A DNA stretch of 64,000 bases from Helianthus annuus (Eukaryota > Streptophyta > Magnoliopsida > Asterales > Asteraceae), in the NCBI RefSeq assembly GCF_002127325.2, contig NC_035433.2, forward strand, positions 80,604,079 to 80,668,078, in the 5' to 3' direction. The position numbers and the translations under genes are program-made. This document shows, one piece after another, positions 1 to 64,000 of this stretch. Under the pieces are notes generated by a model, which worked only from the letters and a program-made list of their open reading frames with translations, had not been told where the DNA came from and searched no databases. Positions within the stretch are counted from its first letter, which is position 1. Every line of letters begins with the position of its first letter.

Positions 1-4
1 CCTG

Positions 5-418
5 ATCGACGAAACCGAATTGAAGAATGATGTCGACGAAACTGAGTGATTGCTGAAGTGGACGAAACACAATTCCTGTTGACCAACGACAAAACCCAAT
101 TGTATATTTGTATTGCGACGGAACACTTGACTTTAATGCGACGAAGCAAGAATGAAGCCCAATTAAATGTGAAGCCCAATTCAGTTTTGTTGAGTGCGAT
201 GAAACGGTGAAGCCCAAAAGGTTTTGAAGCCCAAATCAATGTACGATGAAACTGGATTCTTATTGTTCGACGAAACAGACTGTTTTTAATCCTGGTCAAG
301 AAACAGAATGCTATCCTTTTGACTAATACGACGAAACTGGTGAGGTATCAGACGACGAAACAGATTGTGATGTTATTGTGGACGAAAATCAATTTTAATA
401 ATATGATCGACGAAACAG
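5..418. repeat. GACGAAAC word cluster
   Basis: About 13 exact or one-mismatch copies of GACGAAAC occur at irregular 20-50 base spacing, many followed by CAGA, TGG or CGAATT. The spacers are unrelated, so this is not a tandem array. The same word recurs in the LTRs at 949-1599 and 2668-3361. Confidence 0.75.
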
Positions 419-934
419 AAAGGATCCTTATCCTCTTCTGACAAGTTGGTGAGATGGTTAAATTTATCAAACTAGCCTTCTCCTATTCTGACAAAGTTGA
501 CACAATTTTCAAACTATACACTACTGTTGATCACAATTTTCAAGTAAACAACCATCATTTTATGTCACAAAATTCAAACCACTACAATATAATAATCACA
601 ATCACTTAAGTAATCTTTCAATAAAGATCAAACAGTGAGCTTCAGAAAGAACACTATGAAGATCAACTTGAATATCTGAAGAACTTGATGAAGATTTGAA
701 GATTCTGGTGACCGAACAATTTTCCGAAACCCGAATTCACTTAAAACTTTTACTAAAAACCCGGTTTAACACGTAAACAATCAACTTAACAAGGTTTTTG
801 ATAAAACTTTTGAGCAAAACAACCAAGATCTAACAGATTTTAGCCACTTTTTCCAAAAAAAAATATGAACTTTTCAAGAACAAACTTGATAAAAACCGAA
901 ACTTGTTTCGTTTTAAACAAGGATTAGAGCCAAA

Positions 935-946
935 GCACTGATACCA
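935..946 (-). other. Primer binding site of element A
   Basis: On the minus strand the sequence is TGGTATCAGTGC, two bases after the LTR end. It matches the tRNA-iMet type site TGGTATCAGAGC with one mismatch, and it fixes the element's orientation and the LTR boundary. Confidence 0.8.
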
Positions 947-948
947 AT

Positions 949-1599
949 TGTAGGTCCCGTTTTTCTGGTGGATCGATAACGAAAACCTATCCTTGTTTAT
1001 CACAAACACGGTAACGGGTGCGGAATCCCCGTGACGGTGCAAACCAAACAAAGTGTAAAATAAGAACACTCGTAACCAAAAGATTCAATATCTATTGATT
1101 AGGGATGAGAACGATACAAACATATACAAACAATGTTTACTGACTGTCTCATAGCTCTCGTCTCCTCCAAGTTTCACACAGAAACTATGAGATGCTATTT
1201 ATACAAGACACAGACACAAACTTGACGAAACAGAAAAGGACTCGGCGAAACACCTTTGGCCAAACATTGGGCCTGAAGAAGCCCAACAGGCGACGAAACA
1301 GGGGCAGCCATTAACAAAGTGATGAAACACATTGTGTTTCGTCATTTGATTTCACAATTTTCCAAAGTCAACAAATTCTATAACTATTACATCATCATGA
1401 CATCACAGAGATGATGTCATGGTGATGTGTCACCTGGTCTTGGTTCACGGCGCTTCGTGCTTCGCGTGTCGAACTCTGGGGCGCACGACGGAGGAATGTC
1501 GTGACGTGGGGCTTGAGCCGGACCTAACCGAGTCAAAACCAAGTCGAACCGAGCCGAGTCGAACCGAGCCAAGTCGCGTCCACACAAAGTGTATCAACA
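949..1599 (-). mobile_element. 5' LTR of copia element A
   Basis: On the plus strand it runs from TGTAGGTCCC to GTATCAACA, so on the minus strand it starts TGTTGATAC and ends GGGACCTACA next to the primer site. Length 651 bp. It shares with the LTR at 2668-3361 a block containing TCGAACTCTGGGGCGCACGA and a GAACCGAG-rich end. It carries GACGAAAC words and a near-palindrome at 1321-1343. The partner 3' LTR is outside the window. Confidence 0.8.
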
Positions 1600-1629
1600 A
1601 GTCTTCTGTTTAAAAATAACACAAGTATG

Positions 1630-1795
1630 TGACGAAAAATAGTGGTTTTCGTCGCTGATATGTTGATTTCGTTGCTTAAATGGTGATTTCGTCGCTTAAA
1701 TGGTGATTTCGTCGCTGAAAGGGTGATTTCGTCGCTGATGTGCCTTTTATGACGAAATCAGGGGTTGTTTTCGTCGCTGATGTGATGATGACGAA
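1630..1795. repeat. Short tandem GATTTCGTCGCT repeats
   Basis: Successive units of roughly 21 bases built on TGATTTCGTCGCTNAAA occur at about 1665-1740, with looser copies on both sides (GACGAAAA and its complement). It is the local, more tandem form of the GACGAAAC word. Confidence 0.65.
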
Positions 1796-1870
1796 AATAA
1801 AGTGGATTTGGTCCAGAATGAGTTAAGTTGCACAAGTGTTTTCGTCAAGGACTTGTAATTTCGTCCAGCT

Positions 1871-2144
1871 GGGCCGGCCCTGAGAATTCGTGTACCCTGT
1901 TCGAGCTCGAAAATATGTGCCCTCGGGCCTTAACGAAATTGGGTATTGGGCTCACTAAAGGTCTAAACCTAATACCAAGGGGGTTAATAACTAGTCTAAA
2001 CCATAAGCCTATGTGGTGTTTGTATGAGTGTACCCTATTAAAAAATATTTTACATATACATATCGGGTTTTTTCATAAAAAAACGTGCCCTCGAAATATC
2101 GGGCCCTGGCCGGTGGTCCTCCCCGCCCACCCCCAGGGCCGGCC
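1871..2144. mobile_element. Putative small inverted-repeat element (MITE-like)
   Basis: The ends are GGGCCGGCCCTGAG on the left and, on the opposite strand, GGCCGGCCCTGGGGG on the right. Both are GC-rich and unlike the AT-rich leader around them. An inner pair of similar words (GTGCCCTCG) lies near each end. I could not identify a convincing target site duplication, so the superfamily (hAT-like by end sequence) is uncertain. Confidence 0.4.
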
Positions 2145-2652
2145 TTGCTGGTAAGTGTCTGAGGGATTTCGTTGACAAAATGACCCGACAACAAGATATT
2201 ATCCAAACACAAATCTTATCTATTTCCTGACAAAGAGACTTCCTTTTCAAAGCAATCACCTTATCTTTATCAGACTTTTACCACCAACTACACATCATGC
2301 TTGTGTACACAAAATTCAAACATGCAATATTTTAATCAATAACACTTTAGGAACAATATCATCAAAGATCAAACACAAAAATATAGGAAGAACACTAAGA
2401 AAAATACCGGACAAATTTTCGGAACATGAATTTGCTTAAAAACACGACACAACTTGTACCTTTGATAATCTCCAACACTTTTAACAAGTTTTAAACCAAA
2501 CAACATCAAACAAACACAGATTTTTCGAGTTTTAAATCCAGAATTTTTTTTTATGAAATAGAACTGGGTTTTTGAAAAATATCGAAGAATAAATCAAAAC
2601 CCACTCGAAAAACACACCGGTAACTCGGTTTTCAACAAGAAATCAAGCCTTA

Positions 2653-2665
2653 GGCTCTGATACCA
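2653..2665 (-). other. Primer binding site of element B
   Basis: Minus-strand TGGTATCAGAGCC, the standard tRNA-iMet type copia primer site, two bases from the LTR end at 2668. Confidence 0.9.
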
Positions 2666-2667
2666 AT

Positions 2668-3361
2668 TGTAGGTCCGTTTACGGATCGTCGGACGACAAT
2701 GATTTCTTGTTTCGGGTGCCAAAACGAGTGCGGAATCCCCGTTACGACACAAACCGAGCAAGAGAGTGAACAATACGCAAAGATATCAACGATTAACAGT
2801 TACGTGTATTGATTACGACAAAGTTTCGGTACAATATTCGACAAATACAAAGCTTACCGGAACTTTCTCTCTCTACACTCTCTCTCTAGCTTATCCAAGC
2901 TCTGTGTTTCTATCTTAGCTTGCTGTATATATAGGATCAGCAACACAGCAATCGACGAAACGGAATTTGCATGACGAAACAGCATTAAAGTCTTCAAAGT
3001 CGACGAAACACATGTGTTTCGTCGAAATGCATGCACACACAAAAGGGTTTCGGCCCAATGAAAGTTTAAGCCCAAATGTAATGGCCCAACATGCATTCTG
3101 CATTGAAATTGATTGGCCTTAGCTTTACGTACATTCTGATACATCAACTTGTGAAGATTAACCAACTTATGACATCATCATGATGATGTCGTGATGATGT
3201 GTCAGCGGGAATTGGTCCGCGGCTCTCCGTGCTTCATGTGTCGAACTCTGGGGCGCACGACTGAGGAATGTCGTGACGTCGGGCTTGAGCCGAACCTAAC
3301 CGTGTCGAAACTGAGTCAAACCGAACCGAGTCGAGTCGCGTCAACAAAAGGTGTACCAACA
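2668..3361 (-). mobile_element. 5' LTR of copia element B
   Basis: On the plus strand it runs from TGTAGGTCCG to GTACCAACA; length 694 bp. It is a relative of LTR A but clearly diverged. It contains CT-rich and GACGAAAC-rich promoter-side sequence and a perfect 26-bp palindrome at 3000-3025. The 3' LTR is not in the window. Confidence 0.8.
3000..3025. repeat. Perfect 26-bp palindrome in LTR B
   Basis: Each arm is TCGACGAAACACA followed directly by its reverse complement. It is made of two GACGAAAC words head to head. LTR A has the same structure at 1321-1343 with one arm altered. Confidence 0.9.
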
Positions 3362-9832: not shown

Positions 9833-10638
9833 CGCTCTTTACCTTGTTTAAAACCGGTTTGTTCAAGTTCTTGGTGTGTTTGGACACTTGGTTTAGCACC
9901 CGTTTTTGGTAGTTTTCTGCATAAAAACGCGTACTAAACCTATCGGGAGTGTTCGGGGTCGGTTTGGGTAACATAAAAATCGTTTTTGTGAAACCTTGAT
10001 TTTTCCGGCTATATCTCCGGTGTGTTTCCGGTGACCAGTTCTTGAAGATAAGGTTGCTTATTTTGGCAAAAATTTTTGAAAGTCAATTGTTTGGTGAAAA
10101 GTTGTTGCAGAACCATCCTTTCTGCCGAAAGTTGGTACATCAACACATCACCTTTTTCACCAACCCGTCGTACTTTGTGTCAGTGTGTCAGAGCTGTCGA
10201 AAGATATCCTTCGACATCGAAAGATATCCTTCGACATCTTTCGATCAAAGGCAGCTCGAAAGATAAGCATCCTTCGAGTAGTCTTTCGAAGTCTAAGGGT
10301 TATCCTTCGTAGTTGGAATCTTTTCGAAAGTTGGTTGTCCGAAAGATAAGGATTCATCTCGAAAGATAAGGATCTTTCATTGTGAATCTTTCGAGATCAG
10401 TATTCGAAAGATATAGATCTTTCGAACTGTGAATCTTTCGTGATAATCAGTCGAAAGATAAGGATCTTTCATTGAGAATCTTTCGAAAGGCTTTGCTCGA
10501 AACTCAACAGTAATCTTTCGATCACTGTTGATCCTTCGAACAAGTCTTGATCTTTCGATCAGATTGTATCCTTCAATTGTTGTCTGTTTGCTGTTAACAG
10601 TTTGTGGTGTGTAGGTTATATATTAATTTTCGATCACA
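9833..10638 (+). repeat. Copia-1 leader with TCGAAAGAT words
   Basis: The leader has no gene. From about 10195 to 10570 it is filled with TCGAAAGATA, ATCTTTCGA and ATCCTTCGA words, direct and inverted, at 10-40 base spacing. The same words fill the LTR and the leaders of Copia-2 and the non-autonomous element. Confidence 0.85.
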
Positions 10639-23120: not shown

Positions 23121-23396
23121 TTTAAGCTGTCAAGAACATCAAGAACACGGAGGACTGTTCATCTGCAGATCTGACCGAAAACACTTGTACACGTTGTTTT
23201 GATGAAGAAAACTTGAGTATTTTAGAGAAAAACATAAAACCCAACACCCGGTTTAGCACAGATCTGGATATCCGGGTCCAGATCTGGGTTTTTCTCATTT
23301 TCACCTTTTTACATCTTGAACAAAAACCCACAAAAATCACAGATCTAGAGCACATGTGACTTAGTAAACGGTTAGTTTTACTAAATCGGGCACCAT

Positions 23397-40700: not shown

Positions 40701-40718
40701 TGGCGCCGTTGCCGGGGA
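40701..40718 (+). other. Athila primer binding site
   Basis: TGGCGCCGTTGCCGGGGA, complementary to the 3' end of plant tRNA-Asp, five bases after the LTR. Confidence 0.9.
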
Positions 40719-41954: not shown

Positions 41955-42033
41955 CGGAGTTTTCTTCCATTTGTGATACTATTGGAGGGCATAATTTCGC
42001 ACTAGAGGAAGTGAAGCTTCGGTTATTTCAATT

Positions 42034-42677: not shown

Positions 42678-42691
42678 AGTGGTATCAGAGC

Positions 42692-47504: not shown

Positions 47505-48235
47505 TCTCTGAGTGAGTGTGCAGGAAGTTCCAGGAGGAACTATTGATAGTCTTAGGATTGTTGATAGTGGAATGTCCTTGCACAAGATAGGCGACAGAAG
47601 AAATTGTTGCCTTTGATGGAGAGAGAGAAAAGAAAAAGAAAATTTGGATGAATGAAGTTGCAAAATTCGACCAAATGGAGAACGTGTCAAATTTGGTCAT
47701 TATGGTTTTTGATCGAGTCCACAGGAATGAATGAAGTGAAATGTGTGTCGATGCCTTGGCGTGGATTGAACATCCGCACACCATTTCTGAAAGAGAAAGT
47801 CAAGACCTTCGCTGGTACAATGTGGAAGACCAGCCGGACCCGGAGGTTTATGATTTTATTGCTGTCAAGAGACTTTTCAGTAGTTGCAAATTCGACCTTG
47901 AAGTCCACACCGGGTGGATATCCAGTTGGGAGAGTGCTTAGATTCCTTGCAATGCACGGAACAGTTGCAGGATACGCCTTTAAATTCTTAATCTCTCCTA
48001 TACTTGTCGATATTTAAGCTACTTTGTGAATTATTATTATCTCGTACAGCACTCTTTGACATGACACGTTGATCTCGGATATCACCTTACACGTGATTGT
48101 TTCAATATGAAACTCATCAATGTTGTCATGGTCCGCACCGCTTACCGACATGCCAACTCATTTTTTCAAAATTTGTTAAATCTTTTCTGATAAAACTTAA
48201 TTTTGGTAAACGGCATTAAGGTCAAGCACAAGAGT
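47505..48235 (+). pseudogene. pol: Copia-2 pol remnant
   Basis: After the gag stop, GAGTGTGCAG (47514-47523) mirrors the Copia-1 gap. The protease start survives as TIDSLRIVDSG with the next residues altered. About 47600-48040 is unrecognised sequence with no copia motifs. About 48040-48235 is a degenerate copy of the RNase H end (compare 17600-17821). Integrase, reverse transcriptase and most of RNase H, about 3 kb, are missing. Confidence 0.8.
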
Positions 48236-50119
48236 AAAACCAACATCGGAAAATCATTTTTGAAAATATCTTTGTGTGTTTTAAATTTATCTTAGTTTAT
48301 TGATTTTAGGGGGAGTATATCCAAAAATCAGAAAATCCAAAAACATTGAAAAATTCAAAAACACAAAAACAATAGAAAAACAAAAATGAGTTTCCTGGCG
48401 AGCAAAAGAGAAAGTGATAGTACATCAGTGGTCTATCCAAGCCTCTTTAAACCTTAAATGAAAAACGATAAGCAGCTCTATATAAGATGTATCGGTAGGC
48501 TCACAATCATTTTAAAGTGTGCAGGGTGATATAAATCTTAATAGACTGAAGACCAGGTGGGAACCATTCATTGGCATATGGTCTTAGTACCGAAATTTCG
48601 TTTGATAGATTGCCGAGGTTCTGAGATATTCGGTCTTTATGCTGCTTATCATCTGGGTATCATGGTTGTATCTTTTACCGAAAAATAACGGGGACGCAAG
48701 TCTAGATCTTCCATGATACTGTACATACGTGTACATATTACATACTGCATTCGACCTCAATAAGTGATAAACAATCACATGTCCATATCAAATAAGTGAT
48801 AATATATCACATCTATCCGGGTGTCAAGTTCGTCTCTCTGCTGTACGGAAGTACTGACCTGTTCACGGACTTGCACCTGTGCCCTCATGCATATGAAAAT
48901 CAAGTTCCTCATCAATAAGTGATTATATCACATAGGGCTTGTTTTCAAATCAAAATAAGTGAGTATCTCACAATTTATACGGTCAAACAGATGATAATCG
49001 GTATACTCACCGGTAAGATGAACCCTCGTGCATACCTTGATACGGGAATGTGTCGTGATGTGGATGAACACCGATCGGTAAGTATAAATCATACCTTAAC
49101 GTATCCCCTCGCCATGATTACATCTGATAAGTTGAGCTTAAGTGGACAACAATACCGATAATAGTTATAGGATGCTTATCTTAATGTTAACTAACTGAAC
49201 AACAAGAGTGTTTTGGCATGACCGTACACTGATATGATTCTCTTACCCTCGAAACTCGCAAAAGGAATGTCTGTATATAGTTATTTACTGCTTAACTTTT
49301 ATTGTTTTTCCTTTTAAACAGTTTCGTCGTTTGGTGCATATCAGCACGACATTAGCGGTGATGTCGTTTGATAACACTCAAAGGATTCTAAAATTGTTGT
49401 CTTTTAATTTCAAAAACACGCCTAAAATCCGTGTTTTAATATAAACTTTATAAAAGCCAAAAAGATTTTATTTCTGCTTTATTTTTGATCGTACGATGTT
49501 GGAGCTCAAGTCTTCGTTACCTGAAACCTGATTGAAAACCGAACTGACTAAATCTTCATAAACGGTCAAAATTTGCAGATTTTGAAAGTTAGAATTTAAA
49601 ATTGATAAATTTATTAAACTTTCAAACTGTCGGACGGTGTTTGATTTTGACATGGTCACTCGTGTGTCATTTGTTTATACTATTCCAAGCAGTTGTTCTC
49701 ATTACGCGTTTAGATTTCTTGCATGTGCAGATTCTAAAGGCTAGGAGAACATGGTCGATGACAAGCATTGGAATGAAGACACGACGAGAAGGCGCTCAAA
49801 AGATGAAGATGATCGAGTTGCCGCTGGCCATCATCAACACCACAAGGATCTCACTTCATAAAGATAAAGTCTTTTCACGAGCATAACTCAAGGGGGAGCT
49901 TATGTTAAGGGGGAGTTTGTCAACACCCTTCCTACATGATACGGGTAGTTTGTTGATACACTCTCTGCTTTCAAGACGTGAAGACTTTGAAGATCCTCCG
50001 ACAATGAAGACTTGAAAGGACATCAGAGTTTTGAGAACTCGAAGACCAAAGACCGTCGAAGTTCGAGACGAGTCTACAACTATAGAAGATAAAGACAAAG
50101 CTACAGCCAAGGGGGAATT
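48236..50119 (+). other. Copia-2 non-coding 3' region
   Basis: Homologous to 17822-19717, with the four hairpins at 48764-48971 and GGGGGAG/GGGGGAA tracts at about 48310, 49890, 49908 and 50111. No coding frame. Confidence 0.8.
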
Positions 50120-50763
50120 TGTTGGTGCACTTGTGTCTGTACTTTGTCTGTATTCGGTCTGTATATATACGATGTTCTAAGTCTGTAAGTTGACCAAGTC
50201 AACCATCCTCCGGTTTGACTTGGTCAAACAGTTAGAAAGTAATTGTCTGTCTCGAAGGATAGCTCCTCGAAGGATACTGTTGATCCTTCGAGGTTCTCGA
50301 AAGATATGCTTCGGTTATTAGACCTCGAAGGATCATCCTTCGAGGTCATTGCTGATCATTCGAACATATTGTCATCGATAGATGATCCTTCGGACCATCT
50401 ATCGGATCCTTCGGACATGACCTGCTGTGTATGGGTATATATACCCATGCACTGTGTTGAGTTCATTAGACTTGTTAGAGAGAGACAGACAGAAAGATAC
50501 CGAGAGATAGAGAGGTTCTTGAGAGCATTCTGTCCGGAACTCACACACACACTTTGAGAGTTTACATGTTAGATTTGTAAACATTGTGCTTGTAACCGAA
50601 ACCTTCATTTGCATTAATACAAGTTGTGTTAATCGGTGAACCCGTGTGTGTTTGTTCTTTTACTTGTCTCATCCCGGTTTGCTCGCTAGCTTGGATTCCG
50701 CACTCGCTAGTGGGTTAGTATAACAAGGTTTGAGGTTCGTCATCCGACAAAAAGGGACCTACA
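50120..50763 (+). mobile_element. Copia-2 3' LTR
   Basis: 644 bp, almost identical to the 5' LTR; followed by caatt and the resumed Athila gag. Confidence 0.95.
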
Positions 50764-50768
50764 CAATT

Positions 50769-52755
50769 TTCGTTGAAAGATAAGGCAAAACAATGGTTCC
50801 TTACACTTCCGGCCAATAGTATTCGAACTTGGGAACAAATGCAACAAGCATTTTTGGATGAATACTATTCCATGGCCAAGACCGACGATGCTAGAGATGA
50901 AATTCGGTCATTTCGTCAACTTTCGAGTGAGCCTCTACATGAAGCATTCACCCGATTCAAAGAGCTAATGAGGAGATGCCTACATCACCAAATAGAAAAA
51001 TGGGAGTTGGTGAAATGTTTCGTACGGGGTTTGGATGATGCAACTTGGAATCGACTTGAGACGACAAGCAATGGTACACTTTTGAGCAATCATGAGGATG
51101 ATGATTGGGAATTCTTAGAAAGGATGAGCAAACGATCCAAGGAGAAAGAATCGGCCGATAGAGCCAAAAGGCATTCGGTTTCCCGGTCACTTCCCGATCT
51201 CGATTCCAAAGACCGGATTTCCACCTTAGAACGGGAAATAGCTCAATTGAAAAAGAAGAAAGAGGTGAATGCGGTTCAATTTGCGGTTTGTGAAGAATGT
51301 GGGGATATTGGGCATGCAACCGAGCAATGTTCAATGGGTTCGAGTGGTTACACCGAAGAAGTCAATCAAGTGTATGGAGATAGAAAACAATATGACATGA
51401 ACTCCAACACTTACCATCCGGGTTTGAGAAATCACCCCAACTTTCGGTATGGCAATGCTTCAAATCAAATGAACCCGAATTTCCAATCGGGTAATCAAGG
51501 AGGAAGCGGGTCATCATACCAAAACCGCCAAGGTGGTAACCAAGGAGGCTACCAACGGAATTACAACCAAGGGTACCAAGGTGGGTACCAAAAGAATTAC
51601 AACAACCAAGGCGGTAACGGAAGTGGGTCAAACAACCAAACCGGTGGTAATGATTTGAATGCAAAGATGGATGCGATGCTTTCGATGATGCAAGAATCCA
51701 AAAAGGAGAATGAGATTCGAGACAAAGCACATGAGGCATTAGCAAAACAAGTAGGCCAACTAGCGGAAGAAGTGGCCCAAATAAAGGGAGGCACGGGGAA
51801 ACTTCCAAGTGACACCACCATAAACCCTAAGCATCAAGGGTCGAGCTCGAGGAACACACGTGAGGTACCAATTAATAAAGTTACTTTACGTAGTGGTCGA
51901 GTTGTTGATAATGGTGTCAAAACACCACCACCCCAATTTGTCGAAGGGGTGGTGGAAGATGCTAGTGATGATGAGCTTGTGGATGGCCAAACGGGTCAAA
52001 ATAAAAATGACTTGAAAAAGAATAATTTTACTCCCGTTGTGGCCATTCCCGTCCCCAAGGCTAAGGAAAAGGGTGTGGAGGTTAATACCGCCCCTTATCC
52101 CGAAGCATTGAAGGGACCGACGAAAAAGGTTGTAAACAAAAGAGGTCCACAACAAGAGGAGTTGTTGGAAATTTTCAAACAAGTAAAAATCAATTTACCT
52201 CTTTTGGATGCAATTAAACAAGTACCGTCTTATGCTAAGTACTTGAAAGATTTGTGTACCCAAAAACGCACTCACAAATTTCCAAAAAAGTTAGATTTAA
52301 CCGAAAACGTGAGTTCGATTCTTTCGGGTGCACTTCCACCTAAGCTCCAAGATCCGGGTGCGCCTATCATTTCAATTCAAGTGGGCGATTTTAAAATCAA
52401 CCGGGCACTTCTAGATCTTGGTGCTAGTGTAAGCATTCTACCGGGTAGTTTGTATGACCAATATGAGTTTGGTCCACTTCAATCGTCAAACACCACCGTG
52501 GTGTTAGCCGATTTGACACCTAAACTACCCCGTGTAATTGTTTCGGATGTGATAGTGAAAATCGAGGATTTTTACTATCCAGTGGACTTTCTTGTACTTG
52601 ATTATGTGGCCAAGGACCCAACCAAACAACCTACGGTGATTTTGGGTCGACCGTTCTTAGCAACTGCAAATGCTCAAATTGATTGCAGAACGGGAACGGT
52701 TGACATGACATTTGGAAACCGGAGGTTGAGTTGCATGTTTTTTCCGGACTTATAA
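50769..52755 (+). pseudogene. gag: Athila Gag C-terminal part and protease
   Basis: Continues the gag core right after Copia-2 (KDKAKQWFLTLPANSI, WEQMQQAFLDEYY). A zinc knuckle CEECGDIGHATEQC is near 51292-51333. A Gly/Asn/Gln-rich stretch and a Lys-rich linker follow. The aspartic protease part reads ALLDLGASVSILPGSLYDQ and VILGRPFLATANAQID; DLGA in place of DSGA is usual in Athila. The frame is lost at a T6 run (about 52737-52742), and a stop follows at 52753-52755. Confidence 0.88.
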
Positions 52756-54782
52756 GCCCTCCAGTTGATGATGAATGCTTTATGGCAGACATTGTTGACA
52801 CGTGTATACCTCTTTGCGACACAGTCGTTTATGGGGAAAACACAATGGAGGATTGTTATGTGTTTGACAGGTCACAGGTGGAGGTGGAACAAAGCATGGA
52901 CGAGGAAGTGAGGAGTTTGGAGGTGCTTGCGGTTAGAGAAGGAAAACCGACATGGACGCACCAAGTTGAGAGCTTACCGGAGAGCATTGATACTAAATTG
53001 AAGCCGTCTTTAGTGGAGCCTCCGGAAGTGGAGTTGAAAGCATTGCCGAAGCATCTCAAGTATGCTTATGTTGGAGAGGGCAACACTCTCCCGGTTATCA
53101 TCGCATCCAATTTAACCGGAGATCAAGAGAAAAAGTTGATGGAGGTATTGGTCACCAATCGGGCGGCGATTGGGTGGACCATTGCGGACTTGAAGGGTAT
53201 TAGTCCCTCGGTGGTGATGCACAAAATCATCACGGAAGAGAATGTGACTCCCGTTAGAGATGCACAAAGACGGTTAAATCCGAACATGCGGGAGGTAGTG
53301 AAGAAAGAGGTGTTGAAGTGGCTTGATGCGGGTATCATTTACCCGATCTCGGATAGCCAATGGGTGAGCCCAACACAGACGGTTCCCAAGAAAGCCGGCA
53401 TACAAGTCGTCAAAAATGACGCAGGTGAAGAGGTAGCTACCCGGCCGGTAACCGGGTGGCGAATTTGTATTGATTATAGGAAGTTGAATACCGCAACTTC
53501 CAAAGATCATTTTCCTTTACCTTTTATTGATCAAATAGTTGAGAAGTTATCGGGGCAAAAATTTTATTGCTTCCTAGATGGTTATTCCGGTTATAACCAA
53601 ATTGCCATCCATCCGGAAGATCAAGCAAAGACTACATTTACATGTCCCTACGGTACCTTCGCATTTAGGCGGATGCCGTTTGGATTATGTAACGCTCCCG
53701 CCACCTTCCAAAGGTGCATGATGAGTATTTTTTCCGACATGGTGGGAAAGTCTTTGGAAATCTTCATGGATGATTTCTCAATTTTTGGGTCATCATTCGA
53801 GACTTGTTTGGACCAATTAGATAAAGTCTTAAAAATGTGCGTTGAAACTAGTTTGGTCCTAAGTTGGGAAAAGAGCCATTTTATGGTTCAAGAGGGAATC
53901 GTGTTGGGGCACGTGGTGTCAAGTCGGGGGATAGAGGTTGATCGTGCTAAGGTACAAGTCATATCCACTTTACCGTATCCCACGACTGTTAAAGGTGTTA
54001 GGTCATTTTTAGGTCATGCGGGGTTTTACCGGCGGTTTATTAAGGGTTTTAGTGATATAACGAAGCCTTTATGTAATTTGTTGTTAAAAGACCAACCGTT
54101 TGATTTTAATGAAAATTGCCAAAATGCTTTTAAGAATTTAAAAGAGAAGTTAGTGGAGGCCCCAATCTTGCAATCGCCAAATTGGTCTTTACCTTTTGAG
54201 ATTATGTGCGATGCAAGCGACTATGCGGTGGGGGCCGTGTTGGGACAACGGGTTGACAAGAAACCCGTTGCCATATACTACGCAAGTAAGACTCTTTCGG
54301 ATGCACAATTGAACTACACAACCACCGAAAAAGAGCTACTTGCGGTGGTATATGCATTGGATAAATTTCGGTCTTACATATGGGGTAGTAAAGTGATTAT
54401 TTACTCTGATCACACTGTAGTTAGGTACCTCATGGAGAAGAAAGATGCGAAGCCGAGGTTGATCCGATGGGTGTTGTTGCTCCAAGAGTTTGATTTGGAG
54501 ATACGGGACAAGAAGGGTATTGAGAATGTGGTAGCGGACCACTTGTCCCGGTTGATGGTAGAAGATGATCCGAGAGCCTTTGAGATCAATGAGTCTTTCC
54601 CGGATGAGCACATAATGAAACTAGATAAATTGCCATGGTATGCTAACATTGTCAATTATCTTGTTACAGGTGATATGCCGGCGCATTGGGATAGACGGAA
54701 AAGGCAACACTTCATGTCCCAATCAAGTACTATCGGTTGGAAGAACCGCATTTGTGGAAAGAGTGTGCGGATCAAGTCATAA
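52731..54782 (+). pseudogene. pol: Athila reverse transcriptase and RNase H
   Basis: Open for about 683 codons after the T6-run frame change. Reverse transcriptase: [50 protein letters not shown] and FMDDFSIFG (catalytic DD at residues 347-348). RNase [46 protein letters not shown] and ADHLSRL. Gypsy-type order. It lacks its own ATG start. A one-base frame change near 54720 separates it from integrase. The catalytic residues seen are intact, so inactivation is recent or partial. Confidence 0.92.
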
Positions 54783-55945
54783 GGAGATGCATTGATGATG
54801 AAGAGATTCCGAGCGTGTTGCAACATCTACACTCGTTTGCATGTGGTGGTCACTTTAGTGGTCACAAAACGGGTCACAAAGTGTTGAATAGTGGCCTTTA
54901 TTGGCCTACCATTTTCAAAGATGCAAACGAGTTTGCCCGAAATTGCATAGAGTGTCAAAAGTTAGGGGGTATCTCAAAAAGGGATGAGATGCCCATGCAA
55001 CCAATCCTTGTAGTCGATGTTTTCGATGTATGGGGTATTGATTTCATGGGCCCATTCCCCAATTCTTATGGCAATTTGTATATCTTGGTGGCCGTTGACT
55101 ATGTGTCAAAATGGGTCGAAGCAATAGCCACCAAGACAAACGACCATTCCGTAGTATGCAACTTTGTCCAAACCAATATTTTCTCAAGGTTTGGGATTCC
55201 TCGTGTCATCATAAGTGATGGAGGGTCTCATTTTAAAAAATTTCGGTTTGGCAAACTTTTAAAACGGTTTGGTGTTGACCATAGGATTGCTACCCCCTAT
55301 CACCCGCAAGCAAGCGGGCAAGTTGAGGTGTCAAATAGGCAAATCAAACAGATTTTGCAAAAGACCGTGCGGGCGGACCGTAAGGATTGGTCAAGTAAAT
55401 TGAACGATGCTTTATGGGCCTACCGAACAGCACATAAGACACCCATAGGCACTACACCTTACCGGTTGGTTTACGGTAAAAACTGTTATTTACCGGTTGA
55501 ACTTGTGCACAAATCATTATGGGCTATTAAAGAGGTTAATGTGCAATATGATAATGCAGGTAAGGAACGGAAGCTCAAGTTGTGTGAATTGGAGGAGCTA
55601 CGGGAGACGGCATATGAATACACATCTCAATACAAGGACGGAATGAAGAGAGCGCATGATGCCAAGTTGAGGAAGAAAGAATTTGAAGTGGGTCAAAAGG
55701 TGTGGCTCTACAATTCAAAGCTCAAATTCTTTCCCGGAAAGCTCCGAAGCAAGTGGATGGGACCCTATGTTGTCACCCGGGTCGGACAATTAGGTGATGT
55801 TACTATCCAGGACCCGAAGGATGGGGTGCGGCAAACGGTAAATGGTCATCGGCTAAAACCGTTTCTCGAGGGTAACGAGAAAGTGGATGCAAACAAGGAA
55901 TCGGTAAGCTTCGTGGTAAGTTTTCCGGTTTACGAGGTCGAATGA
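54737..55945 (+). pseudogene. pol: Athila integrase
   Basis: Zinc-binding HHCC region ([16 protein letters not shown] ... CIECQKLG), then the catalytic core with D in [10 protein letters not shown] in [10 protein letters not shown] and E in [13 protein letters not shown], and a C-terminal domain with [20 protein letters not shown] and GPYVVTRV. All three acidic residues are present. It is in a different frame from reverse transcriptase because of the frame change near 54720. It ends at TGA 55943-55945. Confidence 0.92.
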
Positions 55946-57309
55946 AAAGGACCGGTAACACTTTTTGTAAAGTTATGTATAATTGTTTAATTGTTTGTGT
56001 GTTTCCCGGATTATCGTTTCAATTCCTACTAATCCTTCTTGATTGTGTGAAGTCTAGACATTACGAACGGGTCGTGAAGATACAAGGTATGTTCTTAGAC
56101 TTGTTTATGTGTATTGCGGACAATACACGTTTTTTTTGGGGGGTGGTAGGGTCGTTAACGACGTCCGTGCCTTGCGTAAGTTTTGTTTTTAACTTATAAA
56201 AAATTACAAAAAGATTTTTAATATTTTTTAGGATTTTTATATGTGCATAGCCTCTTAATAAAAATTAATTAAAATTCTCTTTTCTTAAAAAAAAAAAAAA
56301 AGCCTTACCCGTCGGCGACGGGGTGATGACCGTCGGCGACGGGTCCTCAATAACCCCGTCGGCACATGTTTCCCGTATCCAGGTGATTAGCCCGTCGCCA
56401 CCATTGCCAAAATCCCTTGTCGGCGACGGGGTGGGACCCGTCGGCGACGGGTTGTCAAATGTTGTCCGACGCAGGTTGGGTTTAAGATGTTAAAAACGAT
56501 TTAAAACTTTTTTTCACTTAACCAAACATCACCCAAACTCAATATTCACCACATATTCGGTCTCACATCATCCCAACTCATTCTTTACCACACAAATCTC
56601 TGAATTCTCTCTCCTAACATAACCTTTTCTCTTCATCTCCTTCATCTTTTCTCCAAGAACCCTAAACCTTCAAGCTTTCATAACTTCCTCAATTCTCCAC
56701 CAAATCCACCGATTTTCGGGTCCATCTTGGGTAATTTTTCAAGACGAACAAAACCCCCAACACGGTTTTCGTCAATTCTTGCTATTGTGCGAGATTTCTG
56801 GGCGTGTTCTTTAGGGTTTTTGAAAGGGTGTTCATCAAGTTGCTTATTTGCCATCTTTTCTTAGTTCTTCTTGTTTAACAACAACAAAGGTATGGATTCT
56901 TCTTAAATTTATGCTTGATTATCATATGTTAGTGTTTTTCTTCCGAAATTTTAAACTTTTTGGTTTAAGAGTAGGTTGTTTAGACAATGTATGTTATGCT
57001 AGCATGATTTTGAGTAAAATTAGTTGTTTTGAATGGAATTTGAGCATATCATAACCATAGTGAAGTGATTACACTGTTATGAACATGATTGAACATGAAG
57101 GTGATGTTGACTTTTGTTGAAATTATAAGAGTATGTAAGATTAGCAAGAAAATTAATAAGTACATGATAAAGTGAGCGACTTTGGAAGTTTAAAGAGGCG
57201 ACTTTACATTCACTTGTTAATTTAAATGTCAACATCATACCTCATGTTCAAAGTTTGGGAGTTAATGAAGGTTGAATCTATATTGATGTTTGCTTGTTTG
57301 TGATTGTAG
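55946..57309 (+). other. Athila spacer between integrase and env-like ORF
   Basis: No gene. An A-run is at 56287-56301, then GTCGGCGACGG words at 56311-56450. At 56889/56890 there is a donor AAAG/GTATGG and at 57301-57309 an acceptor TGATTGTAG, which would define a 420-base intron just before the env-like ORF. Confidence 0.55.
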
Positions 57310-59216
57310 TCACGGCGGGAAGCAAGAGACAAAAGACTACGGGCCAAGCTTCATCATCCGGGGTTGGTTCTTCTTCCGGTTTAATACCGAAGAACTGGGA
57401 GCAACTAAGCTCCGTGGAGGAGAATGATGCAAGATTATACCGACAAGATTGGGAGTGGGCAAAGTTCAGGGATAGCCAAAGTGCTAGAATTTGGGATGAC
57501 GAGAAGAACAAACAGTTGTCGAGCTATCAAGATAGAAAGTTAGAAGCTAAGTTGTGGAAGTGGAAGATGGTGAATGGGGTGAACACGTCGGTTCCAACAA
57601 GAGTGATATGTGAACGGGTCGTGAATGTAGAAGAATTCCGGAACATCGGGATTGTGCAAATGTTTGAGCGTTTAGGATGGGAAAGCGTTCTTGATTGGTG
57701 CGAAGATAATACCTCCAGGATTTACTTATCGGAGGTATGTGAATGGTTGTCCACATTGAGGCTCGTAAACAAGAATGAATCCCCTTCATAGTGGAAGTTA
57801 GTGGGGAAGACTACTCGAGGGAGCACGACGATGTCTTTCGAGACCATGAATCGTATTGCTCGTTTTGACTCTTTGGGAGCACAAGCATATGACTACCCAA
57901 CCATCGAGCAGTTTTTGGATAATCATTTGAACATCAATGATGGTGAGCAGTTGATAGATGTTATTTTACCGACCCACCAAGGGGGAGAAATGAAACGGAA
58001 GCAAATGTCGCTTGAGGGAAAGATTCTTCAAGGGATCTCGGTTGAAAACATCTTGGCAAGGTTTGGTGACCGTGGAGGAGTAAGAGTGAGTGATTGTAGG
58101 GTGGTGCATGCCTTACTGTATGGGACCCCGACACTATCGTGGAGACACATAGTGATGATGAACACATGGGCTACCAGGGAGTCGTCCCAGAGGCGGTTTA
58201 TTCCGTATGCACGACTGATTAGCACCATGATTGTGCAACAAAATTGTTTACCCCCGGAATCACTATGGGTTTCTAAGTCGGTGGAGGAATTTAATGTGGC
58301 TTACATGCGGAAGAATTGGAAGATAGAAGTCAAGTTCTCGGGAAACAAGTACGTTGTGACTGATGATTTGGGGAACAAGTATGAGATCCGTGCTGCTGGA
58401 GCACCACCCATCGTGGAAGAAGACGTGAAAATGGGTGAAGAAGGGGAGGAAGCTGAACCCTCCGGTGCACAAAGGCCGAGGCAACGATATATGCGGCCAC
58501 ATAGGGAAATTAACGCAGAGGTGGCAGGTTTTGTGACCAGGAGGCGGGTGCCCTCCTATAAAAATTTTGATCGGGGGCAACAGGAGATATATGACAACGT
58601 CTCCGCGTGTATCGGTGAAGGACGGGAATACAGTCAAAGAAGAGAAGCTTGGGAAGGGTCGCATGGATCCGCAATGCAAGAATATTGGGCGGCTCAAGAA
58701 GCCCAACGTGAAAGAATGAACAAGTTTATAGAAGAACAAGAACTGTTCCAAGCCATGCAAAGATCACACATGGAACAGTTGGCAAAGATGCAGGAGGATG
58801 AGGCAGCCCGAAGACGGGCATGGGAAGAAGCAGAGGCAGCGCGTCGACAGGAAGAAGAACAATTGAACCGACGCCGGTGGAGTGCCATGTACGTCTCTCA
58901 ACAAATGGCGATGAATAACGCTAAAGTGCTGCATGATCAGGAGCGGCACCATAGAGACTACCAAGCCGGCCTCCCCTACGCCGAGCACTCGGGGTGGACA
59001 AATTACTCCGATCTTCCCTATCCTCAAGGCCCATCCGACCCGACTCCACATTGGCCCGAAGCGGTAGGGTCTAGCTTCATCCCAATCCCATACCAACCAC
59101 CGCCCCAAGGGGAGCAAAGCCCCTTAGATAACTATAGGGAGATGTTCGAGGCCCTCACTGGTTATCCATACCAACCCAACCCGCCAATGGATCCAAACGA
59201 GCGATATCAGCGGTAG
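57310..59216 (+). pseudogene. Athila env-like ORF, one in-frame stop
   Basis: A single frame of about 635 codons, open apart from TAG at 57789-57791. Readable blocks: a Ser/Gly-rich start (TTGQASSSGVGSSSG), NWEQLSSVEENDARLYRQDW, then after the stop FETMNRIARFDSLGAQAYDYP, VSDCRVVHALLYGTPTLSW and RRFIPYARLISTMIVQQN. A strongly charged helical region follows (ARRRAWEEAEAARRQEEEQL), then a Pro-rich end. Position and pattern match the extra ORF that Athila elements carry after pol. No clear signal peptide or membrane helix was seen, so envelope function is by position only. No ATG near the start; splicing is likely. Confidence 0.75.
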
Positions 59217-61118
59217 AGGTATGGTATGTTTTATGTTGTTGTTGTTGTATATTTTGTTCCGTTATTTCTTTTCGTTTTTTTATTTATTTTAATTTTTGCC
59301 TAGTTAAATGAACTTTGTGGGTGTGTTCCCTATATAACCCTCACGAGACCGACTCGTCCTCCCGAGCTATCGGGAGGTTTAAAGGGCTTGCGTGCATACG
59401 CTAAATGCTGTCGTGATTCCTACGAAAGTGAGTTAGGTTTGTTGTTGTTGTAAAATATTTTCCACATAAAATCAAAGTAAAATAATGCATGGTTTGGTAA
59501 TAATTTCATAAAAGTGGTAGAACTAGGTAACTAACAAATTTTGATGGTTGTGAGAAGCATGCTTCTACACAAGGGTTAAGATTTGTAGGTACATTATGTT
59601 CGTGAGACGACCGCTTTGTTAAAAAGATGAAGAGCACACGAGGAACTAGCGAAAAACCAGGTGCATACATTTCTTTTTATCTTTGATTTTTAGTTAGCAA
59701 ATAAGTGGATTGTAAATTGTATTTTAATTTCCGGGGTGAAAAGTTGGGAAGGTAGTCGTGTCACATCCCTTGTGCATTTTTAAAACTCTAGTTCCTACAC
59801 ATTGAGGACAATATGTACCTCAAGTGTGGGGATGGGGGAGTAGTAAAAATTTTCGATTTTGACCCGTTCCTTTAAGCACTACACATTGAGGACAATGTTT
59901 ACCTCAAGTGTGGGGATGGGGGAAAATTTCAAAATTTTTTCAAAAATATCTTGTTTTCGAAGCAATCTCAAAAGCACAAGTAACCAAGTCAACGAGGGAT
60001 ATCACAAACCATTTGGTCTTTTGTCATGGTCAAGTTCAAATTAATAAGCATAGCGGGTATTTATTGGGTGGTTATTTGGGAATAATTCGCCTAAGGAACT
60101 AGCAATTTATGCATATCACATATCATACCCTTATACGTGAGGTTTGAGCCACTTATATATCATAGATTTACATTCACATGTTTCTTTGTTTGAGTGGACC
60201 ATTAGTCGCGTATTGTAGAACTTGCAACTTTTGATGCGTTTGAGACTATAAACCAAATACAAGCACGAGAATGATTAAGGCATTAGGTAAACCTTTTTCT
60301 CTTAAAACCATTTTTATATCCCTACCCGAACAAACTCCTTAGTTGCCCACTTTGAGCCTAAACCTTTCGTTTGACCACCCTATAGCCCACAAACCTTAAA
60401 CCTTTTCGTTTAAACCCGTGTGATGAAAATTCGATTGTAGGAGCTTAAGTTGTATAATTGCCATGGTTCAAAAAAAAAAAGAAAAGAGAGAAAAGAAAAA
60501 TTGTTGTGAAAAAGAATTGAAAATCGTTGAATAGAAACACAAAAAGAAGTGTTCGTAGTTGTCGAATAAAAGGGTAAAAGATTATTGCCCATAGTTGATG
60601 TTTATAGATTACTTTTGTTTAAGATAGTCTTTTGTAATAAAAAGTCGAATTTTCATCACTTTAGCCACTTTAAAAATATCCTATTTCCTACCCTTCGCCT
60701 AGCCCCGTTACAACCCTTCAAAGACCTTTTGACTTGTGCTTAGTGTTTGTGTTCGATAGTGGAGAATGATTGAGTTGCAAGCCTATGCGGGTACGTGTTC
60801 TAATTGGTGTTGAGCGATTAATTGTTGAAATGCTAATGCATTATACATGTTAGCAAATTTTAAGCCGAGTGGAGAGCACATTGTGAGGGGTATGCATGAG
60901 TTGTTAGTTTTACGGGCGAGTTAATCTTGGATAACCATTAGTATATGTGATTATTCACTTGAACGGTAAATATGTGAAATGTGTAAAGAGTTTGAACATT
61001 TGTATGACAATAGACCTTAACTTCTGTCTCGGGAATGGGATGTGCATTTGTTGTTCGACCCACGTGAAAGTGAAAAACAGATTTGCTTGAGGGCAAGCAA
61101 AAGACAAGTGTGGGGATG
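59217..61118 (+). other. Athila 3' region with repeated purine tracts
   Basis: No gene. A block CACATTGAGGACAATRTNTACC followed by TCAAGTGTGGGGATGGGG occurs at 59798-59837 and 59881-59922. CAAGTGTGGGGATG also forms the polypurine tract at 61105-61118, directly before the 3' LTR. Confidence 0.75.
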
Positions 61119-62504
61119 TGATACGTGGTTGTAAACCGGTGCTTGTTATTGTTTAACTTAATGTTTTTACGTAAGTTTTAGTTTCGAATAGCCTACTTTT
61201 AATCAAGAATGTGTTTTGCAGGTTTGATGAAGTTTAAGGAGCTTTTCGGGAGCTTTACGGGTCACCGGGTTGAAAACCGGAGCACCGGAACGCAGTACGG
61301 ATCAAACGGGAGCGAAACAAGGAAAATCTGAAAATGAAGTTTCAAGAACCCGTCGCCGACGGGCCCCAAGCCGTCGGCGATGCCCTCCGGAAATGCCCGT
61401 AGGCTTCTTTTTCCCGTAACCAGTCAATTAACGCGTCGGAGCAGGAGACCAAACCAAGGCCTGTCGCCGACGGGTTGAGGGCCGTCGGCGACGGCCTGTC
61501 AAAACCAGAAACGCGCATTTTGTTGATTTGGGGGTTAATCTCGATTGTGATTGGTTCTCATTCATTGAAGACGGGGGTTACACTAAAAATTGAGTTTTGA
61601 ACTTGATTTTGGAGCCTAATTGATCTATCACTTCATCTCTATTCTAGCTATCTTCATCTTTACAATCCGAATCAACAATCAATCCATCCACCCAAACCCT
61701 AGTTCTTCATATCATCAATCATCAATCCTACCACCATCATCATTCACCAAACCTTCATCATTCCTTCATCCTTCAAGATTCGAGATGACCTCATCCGCAT
61801 TCCAAACATCCGGTGATCAAGCTTCTTCAACCATGAGCGGCTAATCATCCCGGTTTCACCCCGGTGTAGGGAGTTGTTAATTCTAGGGTTTTGAATTGTT
61901 CTTGTTTTAACTTAGTGACAATTTGTATTTGGTTTTTGAAACTCTTGACAATAGTATTACATTTGTTACGAATTCGTGAATTGTCGAGCGATGTTAAAAG
62001 TTATGACTTTGCGAAACGGTGATATGTAATTGTACATTGTCATTGTTAGGATTTACTTGTGTTGATAAAAAAGTGTCTTTTTGTCCGTTCTTCTGGGCGT
62101 TGATAGTTAGTAGCACCTAAGTCACGGTACACTAAATCCGTTAATCAAATGCATTTGAGTTGAAACTAAAACTTGTAGAAATCCTAGGTTAACAATTACC
62201 GAAACCGGGTGTGATTCCTTTTTATTATTATTGTTCTCCTATAAAAATTTCTTGCAATCATTAAGTAGTAGTTGTTAATTAAGCAATTCATTTCCAGTAG
62301 TTCAAATTCACATCTTTTTATTAAACAAAAATACAAAAACACTTTAGCAAGCTTCATAAATTGTGACAATCGTTTTAATTCATTCGAATCCATACACAAA
62401 CCACATACTCTTCGTGGATCGACCCCTTACTACCACTAACACATTGTTAAGGGTAATTTGGGCTTATAAATATTATCTTTGACCGGAGCGCGACACTCCG
62501 ATCA
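61119..62504 (+). mobile_element. Athila 3' LTR
   Basis: 1386 bp, followed by TSD ggatt (62505-62509). It differs from the 5' LTR by about a dozen substitutions and an inverted hairpin loop (61361-61372). Confidence 0.93.
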
Positions 62505-62509
62505 GGATT

Positions 62510-63130
62510 ATGTGAATAAATTTAGTCGGGAATCCTTAGATATCCCGCATCTTGATGTTGCAACAGCTGTGCAGGCTTTCAAGATGGGGTTGTAAAAAGA
62601 TTCTCAGTTTTACCAAGATCTTGTAATGAATCTCTGCAGGAATTTGGATGAAGCTCGCAACAGGGCTCTAGATATATCCGGTTTGAGGATGATAAAAAAA
62701 TGCAAGAAAGGATGAATTCATCCACAACCTACGAGTCAACCAACAGGAAATCAGAATCCTCGTATAAACCGTATCGCTCTAAGCCATATGGCAGAAATAA
62801 CAACAAGAAAGTGAATGTTGTTGAAGACGAGGATCCTGAGGAGTATCCTGAATTATCTGAATACTGTTTTTCTGTTAATATACCTGAACTGATGTATGCT
62901 ATGTAGGGTTGAGGAGACAAAGCCAGGGGGCCTCAGAAGAATCAACAAAAAGCTGATTGGAAGGATAAGTCCAAATGGTGTGCCTTCCAGGAGGATTTCG
63001 GACATGTCACTAAGGATTGCATCGCTCTAAGGAAAGAAATAAGCTACCTCCTGAGCAAGGGGTATCTGAAGGATCTACTGGGAAGAAAGAAGAATAAAGG
63101 ACAAGATCCTTCTATCCTGAGAAGGATCCT
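62510..63130 (+). pseudogene. gag: Tat-like Gag C-terminal part
   Basis: Resumes the gag core after the Athila element (VNKFSRESLDIPHLDV, VQAFKMGL), then a stop at 62595-62597. Another frame holds QERMNSSTTYESTNRK ... EEYPELSEYCFSVN, then stops at 62904. A zinc-binding-like motif CAFQEDFGHVTKDC with the usual IALRKEI lies at about 62980-63040. Several stops and frame changes make it a clear pseudogene. Confidence 0.8.
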
Positions 63131-63271
63131 GATCGAGCAGCATCACCTCCTGCGGATGCCAAGATAATTAACTTTATTTCAGGAGGACCCGACATTTGTG
63201 GGACTTCATATTCTGCGGCCAAGAGACATGCAAAGGAGGCTAAAGCCGAAAGAGGAGAAAAGCCGACTAGG

Positions 63272-63787
63272 ATGACGACCCTTACAACTGACAAAGTGAT
63301 CACTTTTGATAGTGATGACATGGATACTGTTCAGGATCCTCACCATGATGCTCTAGTAATCAAATTATATGTCACTAACCATTTTGTACGCAGGATACTA
63401 GTAGATAACGGCAACTCCGACAATATAATTCAACTGGAAACGTTGAAGAGGATGAATGTATCCCCGATGGATATTACATCGAAATCTACTGTGCTCGTCG
63501 GTTTCAGTGGAGAAGCCAGGAAAACCGTAGGGGAGATAAAATTGCCTGTATATGTTGAAGGGGTCAATTCAACGCAGCGCTTCTGTGTCATGGACTCCCT
63601 ATCCTGCTATAATATTATATTAGGAAGGCCATGGATCCATGATATGAAAGCTGTGTCGTCAACCTATCATCAATGCATCAAGATACCTACCCCTTGGGGA
63701 GTAGTAAAAGTGGGAAGTGACCAGCAGGAAGCAAAAGAGTGCTATTCTTCTTCGATGAAGTCCTCGACGAAGCCTAGTGTAGCATAG
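63272..63787 (+). pseudogene. pol: Tat-like protease region
   Basis: Retropepsin-like domain: VRRILVDNGNSDNIIQLETL, VGFSGEARKTVGEIKLP and YNIILGRPWIHDMKAVSSTY. The catalytic motif reads DNG where DSG or DGG is usual, so activity is doubtful. The frame closes at TAG 63785-63787, and the same frame stays open afterwards to the window end. Confidence 0.85.
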
Positions 63788-64000
63788 CAATTAAAGATGC
63801 GGGCCCAGGTTATTATGGAGGCTTCTGAGCAGGATGTAAAGAAAATTATCCTGGATCAGGATAACCCAGATATGTCAGTGCTTGTAGGAACCAATATCCC
63901 TCAGGATATTGAAAATCAATTGACTAACTTTTTGAAATGCAGGATGTCAACATTCGCATGGAAGCATCAGGATATGACAGGTATTTCCAAGGATATTATA
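63788..64000 (+). pseudogene. pol: Tat-like pol, start of reverse transcriptase region (cut by window edge)
   Basis: In frame with 63272-63787 after the TAG. It reads NPDMSVLVGTNIPQDIENQL and LKCRMSTFAWKHQDMTGIS, the usual lead-in to the Tat reverse transcriptase, and is open to the last base. The stop context is TAG-CAA-TTA. Confidence 0.8.

Follow-up and report, generated by a model that had tools for sequence, protein, structure and literature searches.

The retroelements of the window

We analyzed a stretch of 64,000 nucleotides from Helianthus annuus (RefSeq assembly GCF_002127325.2, contig NC_035433.2, positions 80,604,079 to 80,668,078; hereafter the window), which holds a series of nested and abutting retroelements with long terminal repeats (LTRs). 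The original prediction, made from the letters of this DNA, held that each retroelement family has its own short repeated word in the LTR and in the untranslated leader. Three copia elements are Sirevirus-like, a label that involves no clade placement of their reverse transcriptase. Copia-1 (C1; 9198..20336, forward strand) has identical LTRs at 9198-9816 and 19718-20336 and a target-site duplication (TSD) of AAGTT. Its gag (10639-14358) and pol (14375-17821) open reading frames (ORFs), both on the forward strand, have Pfam matches to Retrotran_gag_2, zf-CCHC, rve and RVT_2, and the gag protein, with two zinc-knuckle stretches, is 96% identical to a H. annuus protein over its full length. Copia-2 (C2; 42034..50763, forward strand; LTRs 42034-42677 and 50120-50763; TSD CAATT) is nested in an Athila element. 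Two long gag frames were noted, at 10639-14358 (1239 aa) and 43656-47504 (1282 aa). The third is a non-autonomous copia element (NA; 21208..24075, reverse strand) with its 5' LTR at 23412-24075, its 3' LTR at 21208-21871 and the TSD ATCCC. The LTR pairs of C1, C2 and NA differ at 0/619, 2/644 and 0/661 compared positions, so that these insertions are recent. There is a ~7.2 kb tandem duplication (5028-9197, 20337-21207 and 24076-26263 versus 26259-33481); the empty sites of C1 and NA are preserved in its second copy, and the two elements are insertions into one duplication copy.

Elements A (1..1599) and B (1600..3361), both on the reverse strand, abut at ~1600 and are represented by 5' ends with LTR, primer-binding site (PBS) and leader; no coding part of either was found within the window. 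Element A has its 5' LTR at ~949-1599 with three words, its PBS at 946 and its leader at 1-946. Element B has its 5' LTR at ~2668-3361 with four words, its PBS at 2665 and leader words at 1631-1865. The Athila element (39309..62504, forward strand; TSD GGATT) lies in turn inside a Tat-like element. The TSDs of NA and Athila were read by eye from the flanks. The name Athila is that of the original prediction and involves no placement in a tree; Ty3/gypsy gag, reverse transcriptase, RNase H and integrase were recognized by Pfam in three frames, with an extra frame at the 3' side, the order expected of Athila. Of the Tat/Retand-like element, the LTR and gag start occupy 32966..39308 and the coding part 62505..64000 (both forward strand). 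The former contains three head-to-tail 1949-bp units (32966-38814), each with a Tat-like LTR, a PBS and a gag start.

Layout and enrichment of the words

The words named in the original prediction were counted on both strands and compared with dinucleotide shuffles, mostly 500 per region. In the 5' LTRs of C1, C2 and NA, CGAAGGAT occurred seven times each (shuffled means 0.01-0.03), and their leaders held 12, 16 and 12 copies of TCGAAAGAT and 5, 5 and 6 of CGAAGGAT (0.04-0.05 for either word). For the A and B LTRs the counts of GACGAAAC were 3 and 4 (0.06 each), and for the A leader 7 (0.08). The Athila word GTCGGCGAC was present four times in the 5' LTR, three times in the 3' LTR and four times in 55946-57308 (0.00). 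ATCCTG was found 15 times in one Tat LTR and gag unit and 13 times in 62505-64000 (1.3-1.4). Each of these counts was reached by 0/500 shuffles. There was no exact GACGAAAC in the B leader, which held 10 copies of GACGAAA (mean 0.19; 0/500). Moreover, C1, C2 and NA together held 110 CGAA[AG]GAT in their LTRs and leaders, versus two in the remaining window (29 regions). The words are thus nearly exclusive to their own family, and the predicted family-specific vocabulary held up, as did the comparison with equal-composition shuffles that had been proposed for it (for the B leader through the 7-mer GACGAAA).

Comparing LTR, leader and coding parts, a further check suggested at that time, gave a divided result. 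LTRs, leaders and the Tat coding part are enriched. By contrast, C1 gag-pol (no TCGAAAGAT; one CGAAGGAT, reached by 16/100 shuffles), C2 43656-48300 (no TCGAAAGAT) and Athila gag-pol (no copy of the Athila word) are not. A stricter test took whichever k-mer was most frequent, for 6-mers and 8-mers, against 200 shuffles. The C1, C2 and NA LTRs and their leader or internal part passed it (6-mers 0/200; 8-mers 0 or 1/200), as did the B LTR (3/200 and 0/200) and the Tat coding part (1/200 and 0/200). The A leader passed for 8-mers (3/200) and failed for 6-mers (63/200), and the A LTR (24 and 54/200) and the Athila LTR (28 and 109/200) failed at both sizes. The slice used for the B leader was 1850-2679, outside which most of its words lie, and is uninformative for that leader.

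In C1, C2, NA and A/B the words occupy two locations, the unique 3' region (U3) of the LTR and the untranslated leader. The U3 array of C1 (9329..9486, repeated at 19849..20006 in the 3' LTR) comprises eight words, seven CGAAGGAT and one CGAAAGAT, starting between -180 and -30 relative to TATA. C2 likewise has eight (42167..42327, repeated at 50253-50413 in the 3' LTR; starts -183 to -30), and NA nine (23714..23883, repeated at 21510-21679 in the 3' LTR; -190 to -28); the words start at -140 to -27 in A and at -90 to -27 in B. In all five copia LTRs the last U3 word begins 27-30 bp upstream of TATA, despite the other word of A/B. Leader words begin ~300-1030 bp past the PBS. In C1, 19 of them (14 CGAAAGAT and five CGAAGGAT, on both strands) lie between the PBS and the gag ATG at 10198..10557; the C2 leader has 22 (43073..43620) and the NA leader 19 (22659..23116). 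From the last leader word to the gag ATG there are 81 bp in C1 and 35 bp in C2. With one LTR counted per element, 21/25 LTR words have the G form CGAAGGAT, and 44/60 leader words have the A form CGAAAGAT; there are thus two site classes that are placed differently, a point absent from the original prediction.

The original prediction described the words as irregularly spaced, and this does not apply to the U3 of C1, C2 and NA, where the spacing is regular and common to all three. Their first five words share strand and class, with spacings of 13 (C1) or 15 bp (C2 and NA) followed by 15, 15 and 28 bp, and the sixth lies 9-10 bp further on, on the opposite strand in NA. When nine words were placed at random in 215 bp, spacings of 15, 15, 15 and 28 bp (within 1 bp) arose in 26/200000 trials. 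Words in both directions, also predicted, were seen in most clusters, with the exception of the A leader, where all seven exact words point the same way.

Elements A and B repeat the layout of C1/C2 with GACGAAAC in place of CGAA[AG]GAT. The A leader holds seven GACGAAAC and eight GACGAAA. A shares the LTR end and PBS stretch with C1 and C2 (79% over 120 bp and 74% over 137 bp) and is 81% identical to B over 203 bp; the resemblance of B to the C1/C2 LTR end and PBS was judged by eye only, in the alignment. Since CGAA is contained in both GACGAAAC and CGAA[AG]GAT, the A/B word may have arisen by drift and not by replacement. A 20-bp tandem repeat based on a variant of the B word spans 1647-1738.

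In Athila, four copies of GTCG[GC]CGAC form a block in the 5' LTR (39542..39683) and three exact and one changed copy form its counterpart in the 3' LTR (61352-61492). The four GTCGGCGAC copies at 56311..56448 are followed by a tract poor in G and by a putative intron with GT..AG borders (56889-57308). Both clusters expected by the original prediction are therefore present, although the second lies ahead of an env-like frame and not in a leader. That frame (57309..59213, forward strand) is in two pieces, 57309-57788 and 57792-59213. It has no Pfam match above the cut-off (one below it, E 0.048), and its second piece has 35 listed homologues, all from Helianthus. The words are 22, 90 and 21 bp apart in the LTR block and 21, 87 and 21 bp apart in the internal block, and the two blocks align with a score of 58 (shuffled maximum 23). 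With the words masked the score was still 17.5 (mean 9.9; reached by 1/500 shuffles), and because the similarity persists in this way, one block is probably a diverged copy of the other. A tract with 2-3% G follows each block, directly at the internal one and ~150 bp later in the LTR. We infer that an internal promoter may precede the env-like frame, an idea weakened by the lack of a TATA box near either block (LTR TATAAA occurs only at 40431 and 40656).

The Tat element has its word in LTR and coding sequence alike. In the LTR of the first unit, five ATCCTG words lie at -281 to -200 of TATA and four past it. The stretch 36775-36812 named in the original prediction lies in the gag start of the triplicated LTR and gag unit. 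Enrichment of the word in the coding part was confirmed: the 13 copies in 62505-64000 cited above were matched by none of the 500 shuffles. In other coding parts, ATCCTG was found 8 times in 7183 bp of C1 (5/100 shuffles of C1 gag-pol reach eight), 4 times in 4645 bp of C2, and 0 and 1 times in 5182 bp of Athila gag-pol and 3807 bp of its 3' part. We rejected amino-acid repeats as the cause: 62503-63999 contains 14 ATCCTG/CAGGAT, in three frames and on both strands, versus a mean of 6.2 and a maximum of 13 in synonymous-codon shuffles (0/2000), a test that is approximate, as the gene is broken, the frames were picked by eye and the stretches used include four stops.

Word conservation and its possible causes

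The original prediction stated that the copia words persist where the surrounding sequence differs, and the U3 comparisons agree. The LTRs of C1 and NA can hardly be aligned: 229/499 aligned non-word bases are equal, and C1 aligned with 40 shuffled NA LTRs gave 43% equal bases on average and 46% at most. Nevertheless, 6/8 C1 words are intact in NA, versus 0/67 non-word 8-mers in the cluster and 7/500 in the whole LTR. The same holds from NA to C1 (6/9 versus 0/61) and from C2 to NA (5/8 versus 0/68). Between C1 and C2 all eight words are intact in either direction, versus 14/67 non-word 8-mers in the cluster and 174/500 in the whole LTR (C1 to C2) and 13/68 (C2 to C1). An ungapped comparison of C2 with NA, which within one register is free of the aligner's pull toward words, gave 40/40 equal word bases versus 20/41 spacer bases (14/33 of those not adjoining a word). 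That words stay intact while spacers diverge points to selection on DNA sites.

We therefore propose, with a probability of roughly 0.64, that the word arrays are family-specific regulatory DNA binding sites at retroelement promoters. Sites at the DNA level fit best because both strands are used in most clusters, because neither the order nor the strand of the words affects the stability of leader RNA (see below) and because the copia sites adjoin promoters. The transcription-factor sites entertained by the original prediction gain indirect support from position (before TATA boxes and ahead of the internal Athila gene) and from words being kept as spacers change. The words would be double-stranded sites for sequence-specific nuclear regulators, with the copia sites acting from the U3 near the TATA box and from the leader as a downstream enhancer, and the Athila sites from the LTR and an internal promoter ahead of the env-like frame. 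A parallel among animals is gypsy, an LTR element with other sequences whose untranslated leader is bound by regulatory protein at Su(Hw) sites. Many sites in series would make a strong, element-private switch. In related families, where the layout is kept and the word changed, sites and reader may change together. The data directly show the enrichment, exclusivity and placement of the words and the retention of the copia words amid changing spacers. Beyond this, the proposed system would involve protein binding, activation or un-silencing rather than repression, and perhaps a host factor as the reader.

Several observations weigh against this proposal. The contrast between words and spacers is weaker in the leaders: from C1 to C2, 12/19 words are identical (16 still a word) versus 26/124 non-word 8-mers, and from C2 to C1 12/22 (16 still a word) versus 15/249; from C1 to NA, 6/19 are identical (8 still a word) versus 0/124, and from NA to C1 6/19 (8 still a word) versus 15/220. 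Gapped alignments are attracted by the words themselves, one or two copies per family were compared, and the C1, C2 and NA arrays are homologous and so form one case of constraint, not three. Furthermore, the coding words of Tat are unexplained by promoter sites, the ratio of observed to expected CpG (CpG o/e) of the A U3 is 0.78, and shuffling the spacers lowers the stability of leader RNA. We know of no plant factor that recognizes the copia word (motif databases were not searched).

The last of the structural points bears on RNA-level signals, in which words pair with one another or bind nucleocapsid in the genomic RNA for packaging or dimerisation. Leader RNA of C1 is more stable than its shuffles (z -7.1), as are the C2 and NA leaders. 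With exact words kept and spacers shuffled, the RNA folded as well in only 0, 0 and 2 of 60 trials (C1, C2 and NA), and with near-words (up to two mismatches) kept, in 2, 6 and 15 of 60; degenerate words explain much, not all, of the pairing. Stability was the same, however, when word order or strand was randomized (z -0.6 to 0.4), which argues that the arrangement is not tuned for pairing; the A leader, with words in one direction, folds no better than shuffles (z +1.0), and in U3 the words precede the TATA box. On these grounds RNA hairpins were rejected as a common explanation, and we consider RNA-level signals very improbable. Some spacer pairing remains in the C1 (10180-10638) and C2 (43050-43655) leaders, its cause unexplained.

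Could the words instead be a by-product of local duplication, spread by slippage and without function? The leaders do contain tandem repeats, and among their word pairs 5/153, 5/219 and 5/154 share at least 12/20 flanking bases where 0.2-0.4 are expected. In the copia U3, by contrast, such pairs numbered 0/23, 0/23 and 0/31 (pairs less than 28 bp apart excluded), that is 0/77, and words are kept there as spacers diverge. Local copying, which the original prediction offered as one origin, may hence account for part of the leader clusters and not for the copia U3; as a general account we think it a shade less probable still than signals in the RNA.

A CpG lies inside every copia, A/B and Athila word, and CpG o/e reaches 1.22-1.57 in the arrays of C1, C2 and NA, compared with values of 0.48 for gag and 0.70 for C1 pol, an excess that is partly circular because each of these words contains a CpG. 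It counts in favor of the regulatory sites proposed above and would also suit anti-silencing addresses. In that reading a protein, encoded by the element or co-opted, would bind the words and strip or block methylation in the manner of VANC on VANDAL elements, and the words would change along with the protein. The layout is also like that of VANC targets, which in the published excerpts are short, family-specific noncoding motifs differing between relatives (PMC5735166, PMC10398659), and sunflower SIRE elements show a marked drop in CG methylation between their LTRs (PMC12844716, in part). The same source, though, finds local decreases of CG methylation across nine lineages, which makes the drop unspecific. 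The Tat word lacks CpG, and VANC targets are tandem repeats, whereas no tandem array was detected over the U3 words. Nor was a binding protein found: for the env-like frame Pfam gave nothing above the cut-off, as stated, and gag matched only Retrotran_gag_2 and the zinc knuckle (VANC was not searched for). The model of the gag extension is mostly coiled coil and disorder (mean predicted local distance difference test score, pLDDT, 50) and that of P0124, an intact homologue of the env-like protein, is unusable (pLDDT 43); these models are too poor to show a DNA-binding fold in either protein, and no fold search was run. We regard anti-silencing addresses as unlikely.

A broader scenario would join these ideas. 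Several LTR lineages would carry a private, mostly CpG-holding DNA address, read by a co-evolving and possibly element-encoded factor that both activates and un-silences, as VANC does for VANDALs; the copia relatives would have exchanged one address for another at unchanged positions, Athila would have cloned its block to a second promoter, and the Tat address would have spread in coding sequence under selection on DNA, not on protein. We judge this conjunction rather improbable.

The words might, conversely, be silencing targets, with the host directing small RNAs and methylation to the clusters. Clusters of LTR palindromes in maize Sireviruses are small-RNA hotspots, according to the accessible parts of two reports (PMC10760457, PMC5311732). 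We reason, however, that silencing alone would not favor retention of the words, and that 8-9 nt words in differing spacers would leave RNAs of 21-24 nt without a common target; this was the account to which we gave least credence.

Relation to known systems

Repeated boxes upstream of TATA, mostly one per element, are already known from Sireviruses. Their repeated-motif (RM) boxes (Bousios et al. 2010, PMC2829016) are described, in the portion of the paper available, as mostly an element's own short motif in at least eight copies upstream of TATA, with additional copies ahead of the ENV gene, clusters rich in CpG and several AGGGGGAG polypurine tracts. C1, C2 and NA reach this copy number (8, 8 and 9 per LTR), and A (3) and B (4) fall short. 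The terminal polypurine tract of C1 is AGGGGGAG, starting 10 bp before the 3' LTR as in Sireviruses (AGGGGGAGTT then TG); those of C2 and NA are in the right place but read AGGGGGAA, one base off. Counting further tracts in the linkers, C1 has four including the terminal one, C2 three plus the terminal variant, and NA three AGGGGGAA including the terminal one. An inverted repeat of ~28 bp at the terminal tract was not found in C1, C2 or NA, where the best ungapped arm (11-12 nt) is in the shuffled range, and three elements in PMC2829016 likewise do without it.

RM boxes have no linker copies when ENV is absent, and C1 and C2 agree, with 0 words in their linkers and no linker ORF of at least 200 aa. 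There are differences too. Published RMs are palindromes, and nearly all of them carry CGG-CCG, as far as the available text of PMC2829016 goes, whereas CGAA[AG]GAT and GACGAAAC are not palindromes; GTCG[GC]CGAC is near-palindromic, but its element is Ty3/gypsy. The second cluster in the untranslated leader is not described for RM boxes in the portion available. Athila, with its LTR and pre-env blocks, mirrors the pre-ENV copies of Sireviruses, although the same excerpts present the RM as Sirevirus-specific within a Ty1/copia set.

Other systems offer partial parallels, again from partial texts. VANDALs of Arabidopsis share family-specific noncoding motifs that change between relatives (PMC5735166, PMC10398659); they are DNA transposons with a known binding protein, and none was found for the elements here. 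In the plant copia element Tnt1, U3 BII boxes, which differ in sequence from our words, bind induced factors (PMC3316501), and its subfamilies diverge mainly in U3 (PMC1838419). Regulatory proteins also contact the untranslated leader of Drosophila copia, an animal element with another sequence (PMC2443393), and repeat arrays in cis-regulatory regions of transposable elements occur in several organisms (PMC10760457).

Six of eight primers listed for a sunflower Copia LTR family (PMC2805666) were compared with C1, C2 and NA. FC and r-rt1 match C1 and C2 fully (20/20 and 21/21), and by these full matches their LTRs match the published family. P1FCo matches at 24/27 in C1 and C2, P2FCo at 21/27 (C1) and 24/27 (C2), FA at 13/21 (C1) and 19/21 (C2), and FF at 15/24 (C1) and 16/24 (C2); the best value for NA was 20/27. 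The whole of CGAAGGAT lies inside one published primer. In the sections of PMC2805666 consulted, generic PLACE elements are listed and a repeated word is not described. That work also reports, for what was seen of it, transcripts of Copia family C211, assayed with RNase H primers, from roots, leaves, flowers and embryos. C211 is not equated there with the LTRs studied here. In a set of 64 embryos its LTR primers revealed a single new Copia insertion.

A literature search confined to open-licence papers found no description of these words. Among viral contigs, a word-pair scan (best 80 of 100 stretches) gave at most 9 words per 10 kb in the densest, mostly GC-rich stretches, and these candidate relatives were taken for chance; a pol search and an LTR/PBS junction scan of the viral contigs revealed no relatives. 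Several features are new relative to the parts of the literature consulted: words that are not palindromes, their clustering in the leader, the retention of the array by a non-autonomous partner, the use of another word by related families, the pair of Athila blocks and the coding words of Tat.

If the proposed regulatory sites are real, many families of elements in a plant genome would each have a regulatory code word to themselves. Two questions would then become testable: the identity of the proteins that wake particular retroelements, and the existence, in LTR elements, of sequence-specific anti-silencing comparable to that of VANDALs. The words could serve as short probes in chromatin immunoprecipitation (ChIP), electrophoretic mobility shift assays (EMSA) and reporter experiments, and as a tracer of how the switch changes between related families.

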